From positions 1 through 22,538 of IMG/VR virus record IMGVR_UViG_3300044632_002106: a stretch of 22,538 nucleotides of DNA. One strand, written 5' to 3'. The DNA comes from a virus. The position numbers and the translations under genes are program-made. Positions 5,500-17,106 of the stretch are shown piece by piece. The notes under the pieces were generated by a model. It had not been told where the DNA came from and made no database searches. It was given only the letters and a program-made list of their open reading frames with translations. The first letter of the stretch is position 1. The number at the start of each line of letters is the position of its first letter.

Positions 5500-5760
5500 T
5501 TAGAGGGAAGCCGCGAAGCTCTCTTCTATTTTTTTATTTAGGTAATCTCGTTCCATATTGATTACCTCGCTCCTGATTGGACTGGTAGCTATGACTGCTC
5601 CCTCGAGATCTGTGGCTGACCATAATTGTGTTGTATGGTCGAACTCTACGTTAGATACTCGATTTACTTGCTTATTACCTAGAGAAGTTAGTCTGTCTAT
5701 AACATCGTCAGCCAGCCCGCTGACATTGCCATCTTTGTCTACGTATATGACTGTTTTCAT
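5500..5760 (-). CDS. Hypothetical protein downstream of DUF2997 gene
   Basis: Encodes 86 residues starting MKTVIYVDKDGNVSGLADDV. A TTG codon one position upstream is also in frame, but the ATG at 5760 overlaps the TGA of the DUF2997-like gene by one base (TGATG), a common reinitiation arrangement. It is a small beta-rich protein (IYVDKDGNV, VSNVEFDHTTQLWSATDLEGAVIATS) followed by a C-terminal helix (SEVINMERDYLNKKIEESF). It is the last gene before the hairpin at 5452-5491, so it closes the AAA+ operon. It may be a further small partner of that set. No family recognised. Confidence 0.7.
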   Translation of the reverse strand: MKTVIYVDKDGNVSGLADDVIDRLTSLGNKQVNRVSNVEFDHTTQLWSATDLEGAVIATSPIRSEVINMERDYLNKKIEESFAASL

Positions 5761-5960
5761 CAATGGCGTATACGCTCTGAATTATCAACGCTCACGGTAT
5801 CTTCGTATTCCTCAGTCATTCTGCGAGTAGACTCATCTGCTTTACCCAAGGCTTTTTCTATGAACTTGGTAGCCTCAAGGCATGACGATCCGTAGCCTTC
5901 AACTTTATCAACTACAACATCGCCATCTTTAGTAATTTTAAATACTATTTTTTTAGACAT
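5760..5960 (-). CDS. DUF2997-like protein
   Basis: Encodes 66 residues. The pattern is KKIVFKITKDGDVVVDKVEGYG, then S-C-L-E-A-T-K-F-I-E-K-A-L-G. It matches what I recall of DUF2997: an N-terminal beta-hairpin with DG, then G-x-x-C-L-x-x-T-x-x-L-E-x-x-L-G. A TTG start at 5975 is possible, but ATG at 5960 follows the upstream TAA after one base (TAATATG). In other genomes DUF2997 genes sit next to DUF1257 genes and AAA+ ATPases, and the same neighbours are seen here. Biochemical role unknown. Confidence 0.78.
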   Translation of the reverse strand: MSKKIVFKITKDGDVVVDKVEGYGSSCLEATKFIEKALGKADESTRRMTEEYEDTVSVDNSERIRH

Positions 5961-5961
5961 A

Positions 5962-6351
5962 TTATTTTTCGGCAATTACGACCAACTCTCCTGTAGGGAG
6001 TTCGCTTACCTTATATTCCAGGTCTTCTTCTCGCAAGCGCTTTTTAATTTCACTTAGCGAATAGCCTTGTTTGACTTTTTGTAGATTTTTGCCCAGGCTT
6101 TCTTCGATGCTGCGGTCAAAGAAGTCGCAAACAAAATAAGCGTTACCTTCGTTATCTAGGTTAACTCCTACATCATATCCTGTTGACTTAGGGTTTTTTG
6201 CTACATACTTGTGTATTTCCCCACGGCGCGGATCGCTTGGGTATGTTGTACATTTTGTATTCATCTCAATTTTCCACCCGAGCGCTTTAAACTGCTCTAA
6301 TAGATTATTGGTGTTTTTGAACTGTGTTTTGATGTCTACTGAGTGACTCAT
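5962..6351 (-). CDS. DUF1257 / Ycf35-like protein
   Basis: Encodes 129 residues. MSHSVDIKTQFKNTNNLLEQ then FKALGWKIE at the start, YDVGVNLDNEGNAYFVCDFF in the middle, and YSLSEIKKRLREEDLEYKV with TGELVVIAEK at the end follow the DUF1257/Ycf35 plan: S-H-x-x-x-I-K-T, a helix ending L-G-W, a D-I-G-F-like strand, V-A-D-W, then a Y-x-x-x-x-v helix and a final hairpin. Ycf35 is known from cyanobacteria and red-algal plastids, with no clear biochemical activity. It overlaps the upstream gene by ATGA. Its pairing with DUF2997 and a Ycf46-like ATPase suggests one functional unit. Confidence 0.78.
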   Translation of the reverse strand: MSHSVDIKTQFKNTNNLLEQFKALGWKIEMNTKCTTYPSDPRRGEIHKYVAKNPKSTGYDVGVNLDNEGNAYFVCDFFDRSIEESLGKNLQKVKQGYSLSEIKKRLREEDLEYKVSELPTGELVVIAEK

Positions 6352-6650
6352 AGTATTTTTATTGTGTCGTAGCTGCTGGCTAGCTGAATATTTAATTTTA
6401 TTATTTCTTTAATATCGAAGGCCTTTTCAACGGCAGATACAAAGTCTGTATACCCCATCTTCAGTAGTTCAGGTTTTCCATCATTTAATACAGATATGCT
6501 TACAGCACTCTCGTTTATCTCAACTATATCTCCGTTAGCTACTTCACAGTAGGGTAAGGCTACTTCATAATTGTCTCCTCTAAACTGTACAGTCAGAGTG
6601 TCAAAATATGGGGGATCTGTTAATCCGTTTTGCTCGTCTCCTGAATTCAT
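6348..6650 (-). CDS. Hypothetical acidic protein inside the AAA+/DUF1257 operon
   Basis: Encodes 100 residues, acidic. A Gly/Asp/Pro-rich N-terminus (NSGDEQNGLTDPP) is followed by a beta-rich segment (FDTLTVQFRGDNYEVALPYC, GDIVEINESAVSISVL) and a helical end. The ATG overlaps the upstream TAA by one base (TAATG), and the stop overlaps the DUF1257-like start (ATGA), so it is translationally locked into the module. I do not recognise the family. Confidence 0.72.
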   Translation of the reverse strand: MNSGDEQNGLTDPPYFDTLTVQFRGDNYEVALPYCEVANGDIVEINESAVSISVLNDGKPELLKMGYTDFVSAVEKAFDIKEIIKLNIQLASSYDTIKIL

Positions 6651-7648
6651 TATACTAGTTTTCTGAAGTATTCGCCCGAAACGTTGGCTACGTCGGAAAG
6701 ATTTTCTGCTTCTGTGACTACAGTGTTAAGATGCGTGCGTAACAAACCAATAGCATCTTCGTCTTTACTGAAATCGTGGTTACCCACCAGCAATCTTTCA
6801 ACTTTAGCCAATTCGTTCTCTACTGCCTTGTCGTCTACAAAATTCATATCCCTAAATTCTTGGATATGTTTCAGTAGTGTTTTGATGCTGGCGTCAGAAA
6901 CAACTTCTTTCTTGTTTATCTTTTGTAGTGCCTTGGAGCAATGCTCTACAACCTTTGCTCGCAAAGTAGATGTAACTTCACCGACAAAATCGTTAATTTT
7001 TGCCATGTGTGTACTGATCTGCTTGCTGTATTCTTTCTTGTAGTTATCTAGGGCTTTCAGTTTAGCTTCGTTGCCGGCTATTTCGCGGTCAATTTCATCC
7101 TGAAGATTGAGCTCTTTGAACTCTGTGGGTAGAGCAATTTCAAACGAGCCTATTTCAAAATAAAACTTACTACGAACATTAGCTGCAGAAGGATAGTATT
7201 TTTCTAAATCTTCCACATTAACAGTATCCTTGTGTTGCTGGTAAAACTCAATTGCCTCCTGCTTGTATCCTTCGTAATTCTCAATAAATTCGTCTACCAT
7301 TTGCATAAATTCATCACGATACTTATAAAGGTTTGTTTGCACCTCAATATAGCGCGACTTTGGAACAAACGGCAGGTTTACCATCGGGAAAGCAAAAGAG
7401 CTTGTGTAAAGATATTTACGGCTCTTTTGCTCAAGATTTTTAAACTTTTTGAACACCGAGGTCTTAATTAGCATTTTTTTACCCAAATCAATAGTGTCAG
7501 GCAATTTATTCTCTAATTTAATATCTTCCTCAGTAAGCTTATAGCCCATGCCCCACATACCGATGTGGAGATTTACTAATTTTCCATCTTGGAAAACTTT
7601 GTCGTAGTATTTCTGTAATGTTTCAGTTACTTGATATTCGTTAGTCAT
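6650..7648 (-). CDS. DUF3150-like protein
   Basis: Encodes 332 residues. The N-terminus GKLVNLHIGMWGMGYKLTEEDI, with LPDTIDLGKKMLI and FKKFKNLEQKSRKYLYTSSFAF following, resembles DUF3150: a (V/L)-x-L-x-I-x-x-W opening, L-x-x-E-D-L, then L-G-x-K and a helix ending at a small aromatic patch. The remainder is a long charged helical region (residues about 95-330) with likely coiled coil. DUF3150 proteins are encoded near AAA+ ATPases in phages and bacteria. Here the gene is 30 nt after a Ycf46-like AAA+ gene, which supports a substrate-adaptor or partner role. That role is inference. The family call is from recalled pattern. Confidence 0.65.
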   Translation of the reverse strand: MTNEYQVTETLQKYYDKVFQDGKLVNLHIGMWGMGYKLTEEDIKLENKLPDTIDLGKKMLIKTSVFKKFKNLEQKSRKYLYTSSFAFPMVNLPFVPKSRYIEVQTNLYKYRDEFMQMVDEFIENYEGYKQEAIEFYQQHKDTVNVEDLEKYYPSAANVRSKFYFEIGSFEIALPTEFKELNLQDEIDREIAGNEAKLKALDNYKKEYSKQISTHMAKINDFVGEVTSTLRAKVVEHCSKALQKINKKEVVSDASIKTLLKHIQEFRDMNFVDDKAVENELAKVERLLVGNHDFSKDEDAIGLLRTHLNTVVTEAENLSDVANVSGEYFRKLV

Positions 7649-7678
7649 ATATTGTGTTGTTTAATTGTTTGCTTATTC

Positions 7679-9259
7679 TTAGTCGTTACCGATAGCGATG
7701 CTGAGTTTTCTCATATTTTTCTGAACATCTGCAATAGGATCGCCTTTACTGGTTACCATCACTAGCTTTCCTTGCGCCTGTCTGCGCATTACCTTCAAGT
7801 CTTCTTCATGAGATACTGCGAATGGAATAAACTCTGCTAATACCTCCGTGACATGGCTGTCGTTGATTTCTTCTCCAGCGTCAAATGCTTTGTATAACGC
7901 ATCCTTGAACACCTCTTCGATCTCAGCGCCTGTAAAATTATCAGAACCAGTCACAAGTGTTTTAATAGAGAAATTTTTAGGGTCTCTGTTATATTTCTTA
8001 ATAACTACATTAAATATCTCTTTGCGTTCGTCTGCCGTAGGTAGATCTACCCAGAACAATTGGTCAAAACGACCTTTGCGTATTAAGGCGGCAGGTAAAA
8101 GTGTGTGATTGTTGGTAGTAGCCACAATAAACGCAGGATTAGTACGGTCATTAAGCCAGCTTAGGAAAGTGCCGAAAATACGGCTACTTACACCACTGTC
8201 TCCAGAGCCGCTAACTGCGCTGTTGCTTAGACTTTTTTCGATCTCGTCGATTAATATCACACATTTGCCAATACTTTCTACTGTCTTGATAATCTCGCGC
8301 ATATTTTTCTCGCTGTTGCCAACCAGTGAATCAAATACACTTCCAATATCTAGAGCAAACAGTGGGCAATCAAACTCTTTGGCAATTGCCTTACATATTA
8401 AGCTTTTGCCTGTACCTGGAACACTAGCCAGAAGCATTCCTTTAGGTAGAGGTAGATTATATGCTCTAGCTTCTTTGTTGTAGGCTTTTTTCCTGGTAGT
8501 TAGCCAGTTCTTGAGCCCCTGCATCCCGCCGACGTTATCGAAGCTAATGTTAGGCTCCATATAAGTAAGCAGTCCATTCTTTTTAAGTTGCGCAATCTTT
8601 TCTTTAAATACAGCCTCAACGAATTCGCTGTTAAATTTTCCTATTTCTGTCCAGGCTGAAGCAAAGGCATTTTCTGCTTCAGTACTAGTCATACCTCTGG
8701 CTGCCTCAACAGCTGTCTCGATAATACTATTATCAAGCTCAATAGGCTCCCTTCCTGCTTCTTCTCTACCTTTGTCTATTGACCCTTTGATGTACATCAA
8801 CCTCTCGGTAAGAGCCTCAATATCTGGCAGGGAGTAGTCTAGCAACTGTATCTCTTTCTGTAGCTCGCCTGGGACTGCATATTTGTGCCCCACAAAAGCT
8901 ATCATGTTACCTATTCTCTTAAGTTTATTCCATGCGTTTCTTAATAAACGAATATTAAGAATTTTATCAAAATGCAAATGAAAATCTTTTAATACAAAGA
9001 TTGTGTTACCGTGCTTATAGTTTTGAATATATTCTAGAAGACTTTTGGTGGTTTCAGTATCTTCAGGATGTGCCATTGCGGTTGGCCCTGATCTGTAGAC
9101 AAGCCCATTTTGCGTGTCCCACTCATTAATGGTAAGTGTGGGGTCTTGACTACTCAAGGCTGTAAGCTCAAGCATAAATCTGGACTCCTCGTGCGTTAGA
9201 ACGAAAACACCAGAATAACCAGCTTTTTGATAATTTTTAATTTTATTAATGCAATTCAT
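7679..9259 (-). CDS. Ycf46-like AAA+ ATPase
   Basis: Encodes 526 residues. Residues 1-150 look like a degenerate, inactive AAA-like domain (YSGVFVLTHEESRFMLEL, NTIFVLKDFHLHF). Residues about 238-480 are a complete AAA+ module: Walker A SVPGTGKS (279-286), Walker B VILIDE (334-339), sensor-1 region ATTNN (380-384), RKGRFD with likely arginine fingers R394/R397, and GAEIEEV (444-450) in the C-terminal lid. This two-part layout is that of Ycf46-type ATPases of cyanobacteria and plastids, related to FtsH/Cdc48 but without the protease. It probably forms a hexamer that remodels proteins. The start has GAGG 7 nt upstream. It is followed by DUF3150-, DUF1257- and DUF2997-like genes, its probable partners. 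Confidence 0.88.
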   Translation of the reverse strand: MNCINKIKNYQKAGYSGVFVLTHEESRFMLELTALSSQDPTLTINEWDTQNGLVYRSGPTAMAHPEDTETTKSLLEYIQNYKHGNTIFVLKDFHLHFDKILNIRLLRNAWNKLKRIGNMIAFVGHKYAVPGELQKEIQLLDYSLPDIEALTERLMYIKGSIDKGREEAGREPIELDNSIIETAVEAARGMTSTEAENAFASAWTEIGKFNSEFVEAVFKEKIAQLKKNGLLTYMEPNISFDNVGGMQGLKNWLTTRKKAYNKEARAYNLPLPKGMLLASVPGTGKSLICKAIAKEFDCPLFALDIGSVFDSLVGNSEKNMREIIKTVESIGKCVILIDEIEKSLSNSAVSGSGDSGVSSRIFGTFLSWLNDRTNPAFIVATTNNHTLLPAALIRKGRFDQLFWVDLPTADERKEIFNVVIKKYNRDPKNFSIKTLVTGSDNFTGAEIEEVFKDALYKAFDAGEEINDSHVTEVLAEFIPFAVSHEEDLKVMRRQAQGKLVMVTSKGDPIADVQKNMRKLSIAIGND

Positions 9260-10115: not shown

Positions 10116-11828
10116 GATAAAATTAAAGACATTGCGGAAAAGCTTCTTCGCAAAAATAATGCAAAGTCGTCTTTTCTTGCAAGGCAGCTGATTTTTTCGG
10201 TGTTACCTCCCTCACATTTTGTCGAAAACTATCTATACGACAACGAGGGAAGACTTCAAAAGCTGGATGCTTTCCCTATGTTGAAGCATATTTATGACAA
10301 TATGCCTCAAAAGCTTTTGCTAAAGTGTAGTCGTAAAACGTTAAAATCTACACTTTTAAGTAATTTTATATGTCTTAATTTGATCCGCTGGAATTATTTT
10401 AAAATGATGTACGTCGGCCCTCAGGAGCTCACTACAAAGTATTTTTCTAGTAACTATATTCCTCCGAGATTTGAGAGCCCAAAAATTAAAAATTTATTAT
10501 TAAAGGGATGGTTTAAGAACGATGTTTTTGAAAAGATTTTAGATGATACACACAGCAGTGTGCTATTTAGATATGTTAGTGATGATGCAACCCGTACTCG
10601 CGGGCCAGCTATTGATTGTGTTGTGTATGACGAAGTTCAGGATATTCAGCATGATCAAATCCCAATTATTCAGGAAACTATGGCTATGAGTCCTTATAAA
10701 AGGGAAATTTTTGCCGGTACTCCACTGGATTCTACAAATACTATTCATAGAATGTGGAAAACATCCAATCAGCTTGAATGGATGATGAAGTGCACGGGCT
10801 GTAACCATTGGAACTCGCTTACAGAGGGGAATGACCCGCTGAAAATGATCCAGCCGCACGGTTTCAGCTGCTCTAAATGCAGCAAAGTATTAAACTCTCG
10901 AGAGGGTGAATGGGTGAGCATGAACCCTAGCGATTATCTAATTACAGGCTATCATCTAGCTCAGCCGCTGTTACCGCACTTCAATGAAGATCCTAAAGAA
11001 TGGAAGGAAATTTATCAGAAGGTGCATAGCGGTAAAAATGAACTTAGAGTGGTTATGAATGAAACGCTAGGATTGTCCTATGATGTAGGGTCCAAGCCAA
11101 TCACTCAGGAAGAACTTGTTAAAGTCTGCCTGTTGGGTTCACAACATGTAAATGGTAATGAGTATGATCTAGCTATTTTGAATAAAAATAAAGCCAGATA
11201 TGCTGCGTATACCATGGGGGTCGATTGGGGGGTCAGTATGGCGCAATCTCGCACAGTTGCTACACTTGGAGCTATGAGAACTGACGGAATTTATGAAGTC
11301 ATTTCAGCTAAAATATATCGTGGCTTTGATTATGAGGCGCACATTAAAGATATAGCTCAGCACGCTAATAGTGTAAATGCCTTTTGCGTATCTGACTCAG
11401 GTCCTGACCCCATCAGGGGAATCAAGCTGTGCGAGCTTACAGACCCTAGTAGATCTCAAATGGCTGCCTATAGAAGAACAAAAATGATTCAGCATTTTGA
11501 ACCAGGTGTGTACGACTGGAGGCAGAATAGATGGGTCTTACATAGATCTGATGTAATATCTTTGGTAATCAGGCAAATCAAAGCAGGTAAAATACTCTTT
11601 CCTGCCTGGAGTGAAGTGTCTGAGTATATGCAAGATCTACTTAACATATACATCGAGGTGAAGGATGGACTGTATGGTCAAGAGCTTATCTATAACCACC
11701 ACCCTAAACAGCCTGACGACGCTATGCACAGCCTTGTATTTGCTGTGTGCGCCGCCTATATGGCTGTAGGAGACTCAAGTCTTACAGGCCCTAGTAGTAG
11801 TGCCGGTAGGGATGATTTGGTTTCCTAG
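10104..11828 (+). CDS. terL: Terminase large subunit (GpA-like, with zinc ribbon)
   Basis: Encodes 574 residues, the packaging motor that translocates DNA into proheads and cuts it. ATPase domain: non-classical Walker A CSRKTLKST (75-83), Walker B CVVYDE (172-177), and the coupling motif AGTP (204-207). A zinc ribbon follows, with Cys 230/233 and Cys 256/259. The nuclease domain shows conserved acids at D374 (GVDWG), D431 (VSDSG) and D538/D539 (QPDDAMHS). Length fits the family. It is the only gene on the plus strand here, with no small subunit or portal beside it. Its start overlaps a tiny minus-strand gene, and no clear Shine-Dalgarno is visible. Confidence 0.93.
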   Translation: MLYHDKIKDIAEKLLRKNNAKSSFLARQLIFSVLPPSHFVENYLYDNEGRLQKLDAFPMLKHIYDNMPQKLLLKCSRKTLKSTLLSNFICLNLIRWNYFKMMYVGPQELTTKYFSSNYIPPRFESPKIKNLLLKGWFKNDVFEKILDDTHSSVLFRYVSDDATRTRGPAIDCVVYDEVQDIQHDQIPIIQETMAMSPYKREIFAGTPLDSTNTIHRMWKTSNQLEWMMKCTGCNHWNSLTEGNDPLKMIQPHGFSCSKCSKVLNSREGEWVSMNPSDYLITGYHLAQPLLPHFNEDPKEWKEIYQKVHSGKNELRVVMNETLGLSYDVGSKPITQEELVKVCLLGSQHVNGNEYDLAILNKNKARYAAYTMGVDWGVSMAQSRTVATLGAMRTDGIYEVISAKIYRGFDYEAHIKDIAQHANSVNAFCVSDSGPDPIRGIKLCELTDPSRSQMAAYRRTKMIQHFEPGVYDWRQNRWVLHRSDVISLVIRQIKAGKILFPAWSEVSEYMQDLLNIYIEVKDGLYGQELIYNHHPKQPDDAMHSLVFAVCAAYMAVGDSSLTGPSSSAGRDDLVS

Positions 11829-12937
11829 AAGAATCCTACCCGCTTTTCTTCTGGCTTCTCATAGCCTGGCTGATCTTCCATATGGTAGATATCTGCAAGA
11901 GTCATACCCTCAGTGATTTTGGAAGTATTTAATCCTAGAGACTCGGCCAGTTTGATTGTATCGTCTAGCGAGAGCTTATCAAACTCATAGCTAAGCTTTA
12001 GTCTACCTTTACGTAATAGCGCCGAATCAATGTTATCCTTAGATGTATTGAATGTGGCAATGATGGACACATTGGCCGCATCACCAAGGAAACCTGACGT
12101 AAGGTTGAGTACAGTCTGAACCATGTCTGTGTTTGCTGATACTTCTCTAGAAATTAGAGCTTTTTCAGCATCTTCGATTACCAGAATAATATTCTTGTTC
12201 TCGACTAGCAATGGAACCATCTCGGGAGAGACAAGCTGCTCAATCATTCCTCCTGGGATATAAACTATCTTACGCCCAATATCACATGTTGTAAGATACT
12301 TGATATAAGACGACTTGCCTGTGCCTGGAGGTCCGCTGAACAGATACAGCCCGGATGTCTTCGTTTTAAGGCTCTCCATAATCTTTTCATGAAAAGCTTC
12401 AAACCCTGATCCATAGTTTAGAGTTAAATTACTATTAACGTCCATTGTAGGTAGCGGAGACAGACTAAGATCTCCATAATTAGCAGTGAGCATGTAGATC
12501 TTATTCTTAAGCTGCAGCTTAAACGGCAATAAAAGATCGCATAACAGCTTGGCTTCTTCTCTGTCTTTGCACGCAGCTCTAACACTTACGTGCAAGCTAT
12601 CAATCTCTTCTTTTTTAATATTATTACCGTATACTGCTCCTAGCATAGGATGGTCTCCGTCGGGAGACCTATATGAAGAGTGTAATAGAATATCTTTGTA
12701 TGCCCCCTCTTTACCTACCCATACATTTTCTTCTACAAGCCTAGAGCCTATCACTGTTATATCGCTGGTGAAGATATGAAAGTACTCCTCGATAGCCTTC
12801 AAGCAATCCATCTCAAAGTTATCAGAAAAGGTGACTGTTGTCGGTATAGTTTCAAAAAGCTTGTTATATAGATGCTCTAATCTTTTGGCGTTAGGCTTCT
12901 CATAAATATCTACAAGGTGGGAGTTATAGCTGTGCAT
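11825..12937 (-). CDS. BCS1-like AAA+ ATPase
   Basis: Encodes 370 residues. Residues 1-185 are an unfamiliar N-terminal domain. Residues 195-330 are an AAA+ core: Walker A GPPGTGKS (202-209), Walker B ILVIEDAE (251-258, with E-D where most families have D-E), sensor-1 Asn in ATFNTS (N297), and RKGR (309-312) with likely arginine fingers. The order and the IEDAE form resemble the BCS1-type AAA proteins found in several large phages. It probably remodels a protein complex, target unknown. The ATG overlaps the upstream gene by 14 nt. Its stop codon shares CTAG with the terminase stop. Confidence 0.82.
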   Translation of the reverse strand: MHSYNSHLVDIYEKPNAKRLEHLYNKLFETIPTTVTFSDNFEMDCLKAIEEYFHIFTSDITVIGSRLVEENVWVGKEGAYKDILLHSSYRSPDGDHPMLGAVYGNNIKKEEIDSLHVSVRAACKDREEAKLLCDLLLPFKLQLKNKIYMLTANYGDLSLSPLPTMDVNSNLTLNYGSGFEAFHEKIMESLKTKTSGLYLFSGPPGTGKSSYIKYLTTCDIGRKIVYIPGGMIEQLVSPEMVPLLVENKNIILVIEDAEKALISREVSANTDMVQTVLNLTSGFLGDAANVSIIATFNTSKDNIDSALLRKGRLKLSYEFDKLSLDDTIKLAESLGLNTSKITEGMTLADIYHMEDQPGYEKPEEKRVGFF

Positions 12938-16511: not shown

Positions 16512-16532
16512 ACCAACCTACACCGAAAGGGG

Positions 16533-16605
16533 TAGGGGTGGAGGGATTCGAACCCCCAACCAAGCAATTATGAGTTGCCTGCTCTGACCATTGAGCTACA
16601 CCCCC
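16533..16605 (-). tRNA. tRNA with anticodon CAT (Met, or Ile if modified)
   Basis: 73 nt with a full cloverleaf. Acceptor GGGGGTG (16605-16599) pairs with CACCCCT, with one G-T at the end. The D arm is GCTC/GAGC. The anticodon stem GGCAA/TTGCT encloses loop CTCATAA (anticodon CAT), the variable loop is 5 nt, and the T arm carries loop TTCGAAT. The discriminator base is A, and no CCA is encoded. It is not an obvious initiator tRNA. Elongator Met or lysidine-modified Ile(CAU) cannot be told apart from sequence alone. It lies about 105 nt downstream of the tmRNA and is probably co-transcribed with it. Confidence 0.93.
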
Positions 16606-16709: not shown

Positions 16710-17106
16710 TGGTGGAGGTGAGGGGAGTTGAACCCCTGTCCTATGCACTTATCTTGCAGCTTCTACAAGCTTAGACTGTTTTTTGTAAGAAAGCGTATCT
16801 TCAACAGTCAAACTATACGCACTCTTTTGAATTGTTATAGTTCTGCTTGAGCGGCAATTCTTTTCTTCAAGCACCAGCTACTAACGTTTACAGACTTTTA
16901 GTAGCATCCAGTCTGTACCTTATGCAGCGAGGAGCTCAGCGTCCACAAAGCCACTGGCCTTGAGGAATGCATCTGCTTCTGCTACCGAAGGAGCGAAGTC
17001 AAAATTAGACTCTGCGTTTATTTTGCCTAGATTTTTAAGAGGCCCACCAGGCTTCCTCTACATGCTGCTGCAAGGGCTCATACACAGTCGAAACCAGATC
17101 ACCCCC
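16710..17106 (-). ncRNA. ssrA: tmRNA (transfer-messenger RNA), one-piece
   Basis: 397 nt including an encoded CCA. The acceptor stem GGGGGTG (17106-17100) pairs with CACCTCC (16720-16714). The 3' end carries the T arm with TTCAACT. Helix 2 pairs TTGCAGC near the 5' end with GCTGCAA near the 3' end. Four pseudoknots can be drawn: PK1 GAGG/CCTC with GCCTGG/CTAGGC before the tag; PK2 ACAGACT/AGTCTGT with GCTACTA/TAGTAGC; PK3 GCTTGA/TCAAGC with GAATTG/CAATTC; PK4 GCGTAT/ATACGC with GACTGTT/AACAGTC. The tag frame runs from GCA at 17015 to TAA at 16922-16920: 31 codons, starting AESNFDFA and ending DAELLAA, a proteolysis-type end. The RNA rescues stalled ribosomes and tags the nascent protein. No smpB gene is in the window. 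Confidence 0.95.

Follow-up and report, generated by a model that had tools for sequence, protein, structure and literature searches.

Introduction

An environmental phage fragment raises the question of whether six tightly packed genes encode a single machine and, if they do, which client that machine would serve. The fragment is IMG/VR virus record IMGVR_UViG_3300044632_002106, from a phage known from environmental DNA only, and its whole 22.5-kb stretch (22,538 nucleotides) is referred to here as the window. The six genes occupy positions 9259–5500 on the minus strand, in the order AAA+ ATPase, DUF3150, x100, DUF1257-like, DUF2997 and y86. We propose, with a rough probability of one half, that this block specifies one ATP-driven protein-remodelling machine whose most likely client is the element's own replication-recombination complex. 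We treat the block as one cassette and, very probably, one machine because its genes keep company in viruses that are unrelated to one another, on plasmids and in bacterial genomes, and because DUF1257 and DUF2997 can be found as a fusion.

Layout and conservation of the six-gene block

The genes of the cassette are as follows.
7679–9259, minus strand: tandem AAA+ ATPase, 526 amino acids (Pfam AAA, E = 1.4e-28; PHROG 8638, E = 2e-119)
6650–7648, minus strand: DUF3150 protein, 332 amino acids, mainly long helices (PF11348, E = 5.2e-13, above cut-off)
6348–6650, minus strand: x100, 100 amino acids, clade-specific (kept in 28 relatives; no Pfam, PHROG or NCBIfam match)
5962–6351, minus strand: divergent DUF1257 (Ycf35-like) protein, 129 amino acids, N-terminus MSHSV.IKT (recognized by a window-clade profile)
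5760–5960, minus strand: DUF2997 protein, 66 amino acids from a conserved ATG (PF11211, E = 1e-9, above cut-off)
5500–5760, minus strand: y86, 86 amino acids, core family (window-clade profile matches beside DUF2997 in phages I4, SM1 and HJ05)

A first-pass annotation of this DNA had every junction but the first overlapping or 1 nucleotide apart, and its reading frames, lengths and junctions are confirmed: the AAA and DUF3150 genes are separated by 30 nucleotides, and the junctions that follow, counted from conserved ATG starts, are −1, −4, +1 and −1 nucleotides. The longest DUF2997 frame begins at a TTG at 5975, and y86 has an alternative TTG start at 5763. Most start codons between 5500 and 9259 lack a clear Shine-Dalgarno sequence and are preceded by A/T-rich stretches (for example, ATAT-ATG), a context that could point to a Bacteroidota-type host.

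A nucleotide search of published phages with the window gave no match. Scanning IMG/VR with the AAA protein recovered 39 loci at 51–90% identity; the cassette order is kept in these as far as each contig reaches, with terminase upstream on the opposite strand and SbcD downstream, x100 falling under the detection limit of the scan in L033, L034 and L038. The ratio of non-synonymous to synonymous change (dN/dS) was 0.03–0.14 for AAA, DUF1257, x100 and y86 where dS was measurable, indicating purifying selection; DUF2997 had too few changes to judge, and DUF3150 and most other comparisons were saturated. Given the conserved order in 39 loci and the low ratios, we regard the cassette reading frames as real genes.

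A tandem AAA+ protein with a degenerate first domain

The AAA+ protein scores 100 bits against Pfam AAA (PF00004; cut-off 21.2). Walker A (GTGKS), Walker B (LIDE), the sensor 1 asparagine and the arginine finger (RKGRFD) are intact in its C-terminal domain only. The N-terminal domain, at approximately residues 40–205, is degenerate and has no P-loop; what remains of the motifs there is a Walker B region in degenerate form (LKDFH), a strand resembling sensor 1 (P.EL) and a helix resembling the lid. Comparison of the two domains by hhalign shows them to be collinear (96%, E = 4.6e-9) with a diverse alignment, which alone succeeded, a narrow alignment giving 1.7%. This order of a degenerate and then an active domain is that of Ycf46-type AAA proteins, and the link to plastid Ycf46 is one of domain architecture only, Pfam and NCBIfam having returned no Ycf46 match. 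The nearest solved structures to the active domain are the D2 domains of Cdc48, p97 and VAT. Its pore-loop residue is leucine or histidine in the window clade, whereas a few phages have an aromatic one.

Inserts split the AAA gene of several relatives where it encodes Walker A or Walker B (L039 11020–11830; L041 11006–11816; L042; L044 8900–10000; L045 3146–4230). As we read them, these inserts appear to carry HNH or LAGLIDADG-like reading frames, and one of them matches a group I intron model at E = 2e-4, a score under the gathering threshold. Such elements prefer conserved positions within important genes.

The partner proteins

Of the family names given in the first-pass annotation, those of the AAA, DUF3150 and DUF2997 proteins hold by Pfam cut-offs; that of the DUF1257 protein fails in Pfam directly and is recovered through a profile of the window clade. 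DUF3150 scores 49.3 bits (cut-off 24.9) and is above cut-off in all 12 IMG/VR relatives searched, and DUF2997 scores 38.6 bits (cut-off 24.1) and is above cut-off in 17 of 20 phage records, with one cysteine common to all recognized homologues aligned. The DUF1257-like protein has no match to PF06868 at E ≤ 1, nor do 12 related IMG/VR records. The window-clade profile, however, matches proteins of Rhizobium phage I4 (2.4e-6) and Pseudomonas phage SM1 (9.6e-5) that themselves pass the PF06868 cut-off and occupy the same gene position, and the window protein shares an MSH start and a YDVG-like motif with accepted DUF1257 proteins.

The two unassigned members, suggested at first to be the most novel parts, have fared differently. 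y86 is a widespread core member of the cassette, its family unnamed so far: a profile built from the window clade alone, so that the match is not circular, hits the proteins beside DUF2997 in I4, SM1 and HJ05 (E = 8e-8 to 7e-7), and homologues are also found in Nitrospirota and clostridial genomes. The assignment in phage RcMenchie rests on alignment and position, and that in JP1 on a wider profile. Against solved structures y86 gave only weak kinase and ribosomal-protein matches (E = 0.01 or worse). x100, by comparison, is confined to the window clade, with no homologue detected outside it.

Most relatives have a further small protein between DUF1257 and DUF2997, z95, of about 87–97 amino acids and unknown family, with the C-terminal pattern ...KKHTV.IKF.YD..GKF...SM.YV (carried by L014, L015, L017, L019–L021, L025–L028, L030–L037, L040–L044, L046, L048 and L049). 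It is absent from this position in the window, L011–L013 and L024, and was not found elsewhere in the window. Homology among DUF1257, DUF2997, y86, x100 and z95 was considered and found to be unsupported (at most 12%).

On large proteobacterial plasmids (L101, L102 and L103), DUF3150 stands beside VWA-type partners and close to an AAA gene, MoxR-like or of another kind; DUF1257 and DUF2997 are absent.

Occurrence of the cassette in other viruses, plasmids and genomes

Phages of Rhizobium (I4), Pseudomonas (SM1), Aeromonas (HJ05), Rhodobacter (RcMenchie) and Agrobacterium (JP1) carry AAA, DUF1257, DUF2997 and y86, with one or more unrelated proteins between AAA and DUF1257, and with y86 directly 3′ of DUF2997 or a few genes on. 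In published phages AAA is followed by a protein of approximately 200–266 amino acids with no detectable relation to DUF3150, and tblastn searches of published phages with window-type DUF2997 or DUF3150 returned nothing. Mycobacterium phage Firecracker and Stenotrophomonas phage Summit have the AAA gene and no recognizable partners. A second viral set, found with the AAA protein of Candidatus Manganitrophus, together with three I4-type contigs gave 29 further viral contigs; AAA, DUF1257 and DUF2997 are present in 28 of them, with DUF3150 in 18 and y86 in 8; the remaining contig stops directly behind its AAA gene. A viral scan with the Paenibacillus AAA protein yielded nothing. The set AAA, DUF1257, DUF2997, DUF3150 and y86 is present on plasmids of Candidatus Manganitrophus and on further contigs from Nitrospirota.

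To avoid selection on the AAA gene, we seeded a survey with DUF2997, sampling three phyla evenly and considering neighbours within approximately 1.5 kb. DUF1257 was near DUF2997 at 28 of 37 loci (Nitrospirota, 10/11; the phylum of the Clostridia genome, 5/7; the phylum of the Anaerolineae genome, 13/19), and y86 was present at 10/11, 2/7 and 0/19, respectively. Wider flanks revealed AAA at more DUF2997 loci, but at several Nitrospirota loci even 10 kb of flank showed no AAA. The AAA at a few clostridial and Chloroflexota loci is of another, canonical-looking kind. In the loci scanned, which total 2.0 Mb when overlaps are counted twice, the models gave no stray DUF1257 or y86 matches, two stray DUF2997 matches (in 3-kb loci) and four stray DUF3150 matches, all on plasmids fetched for DUF3150; because these loci were chosen for cassette genes, the scan tests the models and not genome-wide frequency.

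In two clostridial genomes DUF1257 and DUF2997 are fused in a single open frame, which supports contact between the two products. The idea that a conserved phage cassette of this kind amounts to one machine, an AAA+ motor with adaptors, is therefore strongly supported by co-occurrence (28/37 DUF2997 loci, and 28/29 further viral contigs with AAA) and by fusion, from which we infer the complex itself.

The fused loci (L172 9353–14162, and L173) also contain y86 together with genes for a DUF6744 protein and an E2-like protein (Prok-E2_D, weakly PRTRC_B). A link to ubiquitin-like systems was considered and rejected: the E2-like gene lies approximately 2.4 kb past y86 at one clostridial locus, but in two Nitrospirota loci the JAB-type genes close to the cassette are, on our reading, RadC.

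Radical-SAM partners and an activase alternative

An NrdG-like radical-SAM gene often lies near DUF2997 in place of y86, in Chloroflexota, Actinomycetota, Paenibacillus and one Nitrospirota genome (L123, L146–L163, L083, L086, L108 and L166). In the DUF2997 survey it was present at 16 of 19 Chloroflexota loci and at none in Nitrospirota or the phylum of the Clostridia genome, and it is also found on actinobacterial, Paenibacillus and Treponema plasmids. In an AAA tree, y86-type cassettes and radical-SAM-type cassettes each cluster, with two label changes each against 8.5 in shuffles, although near-copies add to this clustering and the deep forks are weak.

These partners, and the ferredoxin of the Synechocystis cluster DUF2997-ycf35-fed7 (PMC4284462), make a cofactor or activase role the main rival to a replication-recombination client. 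Here the AAA+ protein, with DUF1257 and DUF2997, would condition a redox, metal- or radical-bearing enzyme in the manner of MoxR/VWA and Rubisco-activase systems, and in phages y86 and DUF3150 would stand in for the radical-SAM partner. The cysteine shared by all recognized DUF2997 proteins would suit such a role, as would the position of DUF3150 on a Cupriavidus plasmid, with a MoxR-like AAA gene on one side and a DUF2201/VWA gene on the other. Beside the window cassette, however, no radical-SAM, ferredoxin or cofactor-enzyme gene was recognized, and the window AAA is Cdc48-like and not MoxR-like; we consider this role doubtful, if less so than any other alternative.

Neighbouring genes and the likely client

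In the window SbcD lies downstream of the cassette, and in relatives SbcC/Rad50-like, XPB-type helicase and Toprim proteins are also encoded there. A DnaB-like gene comes soon after the cassette in I4, and a RepO-like gene in HJ05; on Nitrospirota contigs we read primase-like, UvrD-like and SSB-like frames near it (UvrD is also annotated). In published phages the cassette follows the lysis genes and precedes the replication genes. Because the cassette is encoded beside genes of this kind, we consider the replication-recombination apparatus its most likely client.

The first-pass annotation had suggested virion assembly, host takeover or anti-defence. None received direct support, since there are no structural genes in the cassette and no defence match beyond the AAA domain, and the neighbours belong mainly to replication and recombination. 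A factor for virion assembly or packaging might be entertained given the large terminase and tail-fibre-like genes within the same window, but the terminase is on the opposite strand, the place of the cassette in published phages is between lysis and replication, and plasmids carry the cassette without virion genes in the annotated neighbourhood; we judge this role very improbable.

A motor that takes apart a host defence or regulatory complex is better motivated, in that the carriers are phages and plasmids of many hosts and the AAA domain resembles IetA of the IetAS system, a fold used in phage-host conflict. This similarity is nevertheless limited to the AAA domain (82.5 bits against an IetA cut-off of 510), and no IetS-like protease is encoded in the cassette. 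A defence-family scan of the cassette gave, beyond a marginal methyltransferase match of DUF2997, only AAA-domain similarity to IetA and TRIP13. Moreover, the fixed gene order and recurrent place by replication genes are unlike those of accessory anti-defence genes, and the cassette is found in bacterial genomes too. Counter-defence or host takeover is thus unlikely.

The proposed machine

For the remodelling machine that we favour, the AAA+ protein would be the motor, a ring whose first AAA tier is inert and whose second does the work; a ring is expected because D2 is Cdc48/VAT-like. DUF1257 and DUF2997 would form a physically coupled adaptor pair on this motor, y86 may act as another core adaptor or as a regulator, and DUF3150 may be a long helical arm able to serve MoxR/VWA-type motors too. 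A scan of ten proteins around the cassette found no protease family, which makes remodelling more likely than degradation: the machine would unfold, extract or switch a protein. In phages and plasmids its client would be an early-acting complex of the element's own replication-recombination apparatus.

Several points weigh against this proposal. Complex formation, remodelling activity, adaptor roles and client are what we infer from the observed gene identities, conservation, association, domain architecture and fusion. The pore loop of the window clade has leucine or histidine where an aromatic residue is usual, which makes simple threading a weaker model. The replication-gene neighbourhood may reflect early expression only, and other settings exist, with a baseplate gene by the cassette on a Treponema plasmid and Hsp70/GrpE on a Pseudanabaena plasmid. 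The radical-SAM and ferredoxin partners found elsewhere also suit a cofactor or activase role. The structural searches offered no guide: neither DUF1257 nor DUF3150 matched a solved structure by sequence, and the fold searches gave no match at E ≤ 0.001 for the predicted DUF1257 model (predicted local distance difference test score (pLDDT) 70) and no PDB match at that threshold for the AlphaFold2 model of DUF3150 (pLDDT 72, with one 64-residue helix).

Other features of the window

The window also encodes a terminase large subunit, a tail-fibre-like protein, a transfer-messenger RNA (tmRNA; 16710–17106) with the 31-residue tag AESNFDFAPSVAEADAFLKASGFVDAELLAA, and a methionine transfer RNA (tRNA-Met; 16531–16605). 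A tmRNA is present in relatives L039 and L041 too. On the other side of the terminase gene, at 11825–12937, lies a second AAA protein of 370 amino acids (PHROG 14322), which is kept in relatives. The related phage contig L041 contains an abiF RNA match at 5583–5619 (Rfam RF03085, 47 bits).

Significance and comparison with known systems

The cassette links DUF1257, DUF2997, DUF3150 and the unnamed y86 to a single AAA+ motor, in a module found in several bacterial phyla, on their plasmids and in three or more separate viral lineages. We tentatively suggest that phages and plasmids widely share an AAA+ remodelling system, so far undescribed, made up of the motor, the DUF1257-DUF2997 adaptor pair, DUF3150 and either y86 or a radical-SAM partner in its stead, and that the plastid orphans ycf46 and ycf35 might be its domesticated relatives. 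'Undescribed' is provisional, as our literature search covered open papers, with subscription papers and most preprints outside its scope; within it no description of the cassette was found, and of 5.39 million papers three name DUF1257 or DUF2997 and none DUF3150, the Synechocystis cluster being the one pertinent statement. If the suggestion is correct, the phage version could show what the plastid genes do, and its small proteins and the fused adaptor pair would give a first experimental handle on ycf35 and ycf46. That a radical-SAM activase can take the place of y86, and that MoxR/VWA cassettes also have DUF3150, are testable clues to mechanism.

Ycf46, Ycf35 and DUF2997 of cyanobacteria and plastids resemble the cassette in the tandem AAA with a degenerate first domain, a likeness of architecture alone. 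As in the window, DUF1257 adjoins DUF2997 in Synechocystis (PMC4284462), and on cyanobacterial plasmids an AAA of this tandem type lies within approximately 4 kb of both. The phage and Nitrospirota form differs from the cyanobacterial one in having DUF3150 and y86, whereas in Synechocystis the ferredoxin gene fed7 adjoins.

The plasmid cassettes of Cupriavidus, Burkholderia and Pseudomonas luteola that combine a MoxR-like AAA with DUF3150 and DUF2201/VWA are alike in placing DUF3150 by or near an AAA-type ATPase. They differ in their MoxR-like AAA_5 domain, their VWA or metallopeptidase-like partner and their lack of DUF1257, DUF2997 and y86; the window AAA is classical (PF00004, CDC48-like), with no VWA protein in its cassette, and does not belong with them. 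The anti-phage system IetAS and SgiAT of SGI1 have a related AAA domain of the SpoVK/Ycf46/Vps4 superfamily, but pair it with a subtilisin-like protease; the window cassette has none, and its AAA score falls well short of IetA membership. Finally, the Cdc48, p97 and VAT unfoldases are the nearest solved relatives of the active AAA domain, from which the window protein is set apart by a first tier without a P-loop, unrelated small partners and a mostly non-aromatic pore loop.

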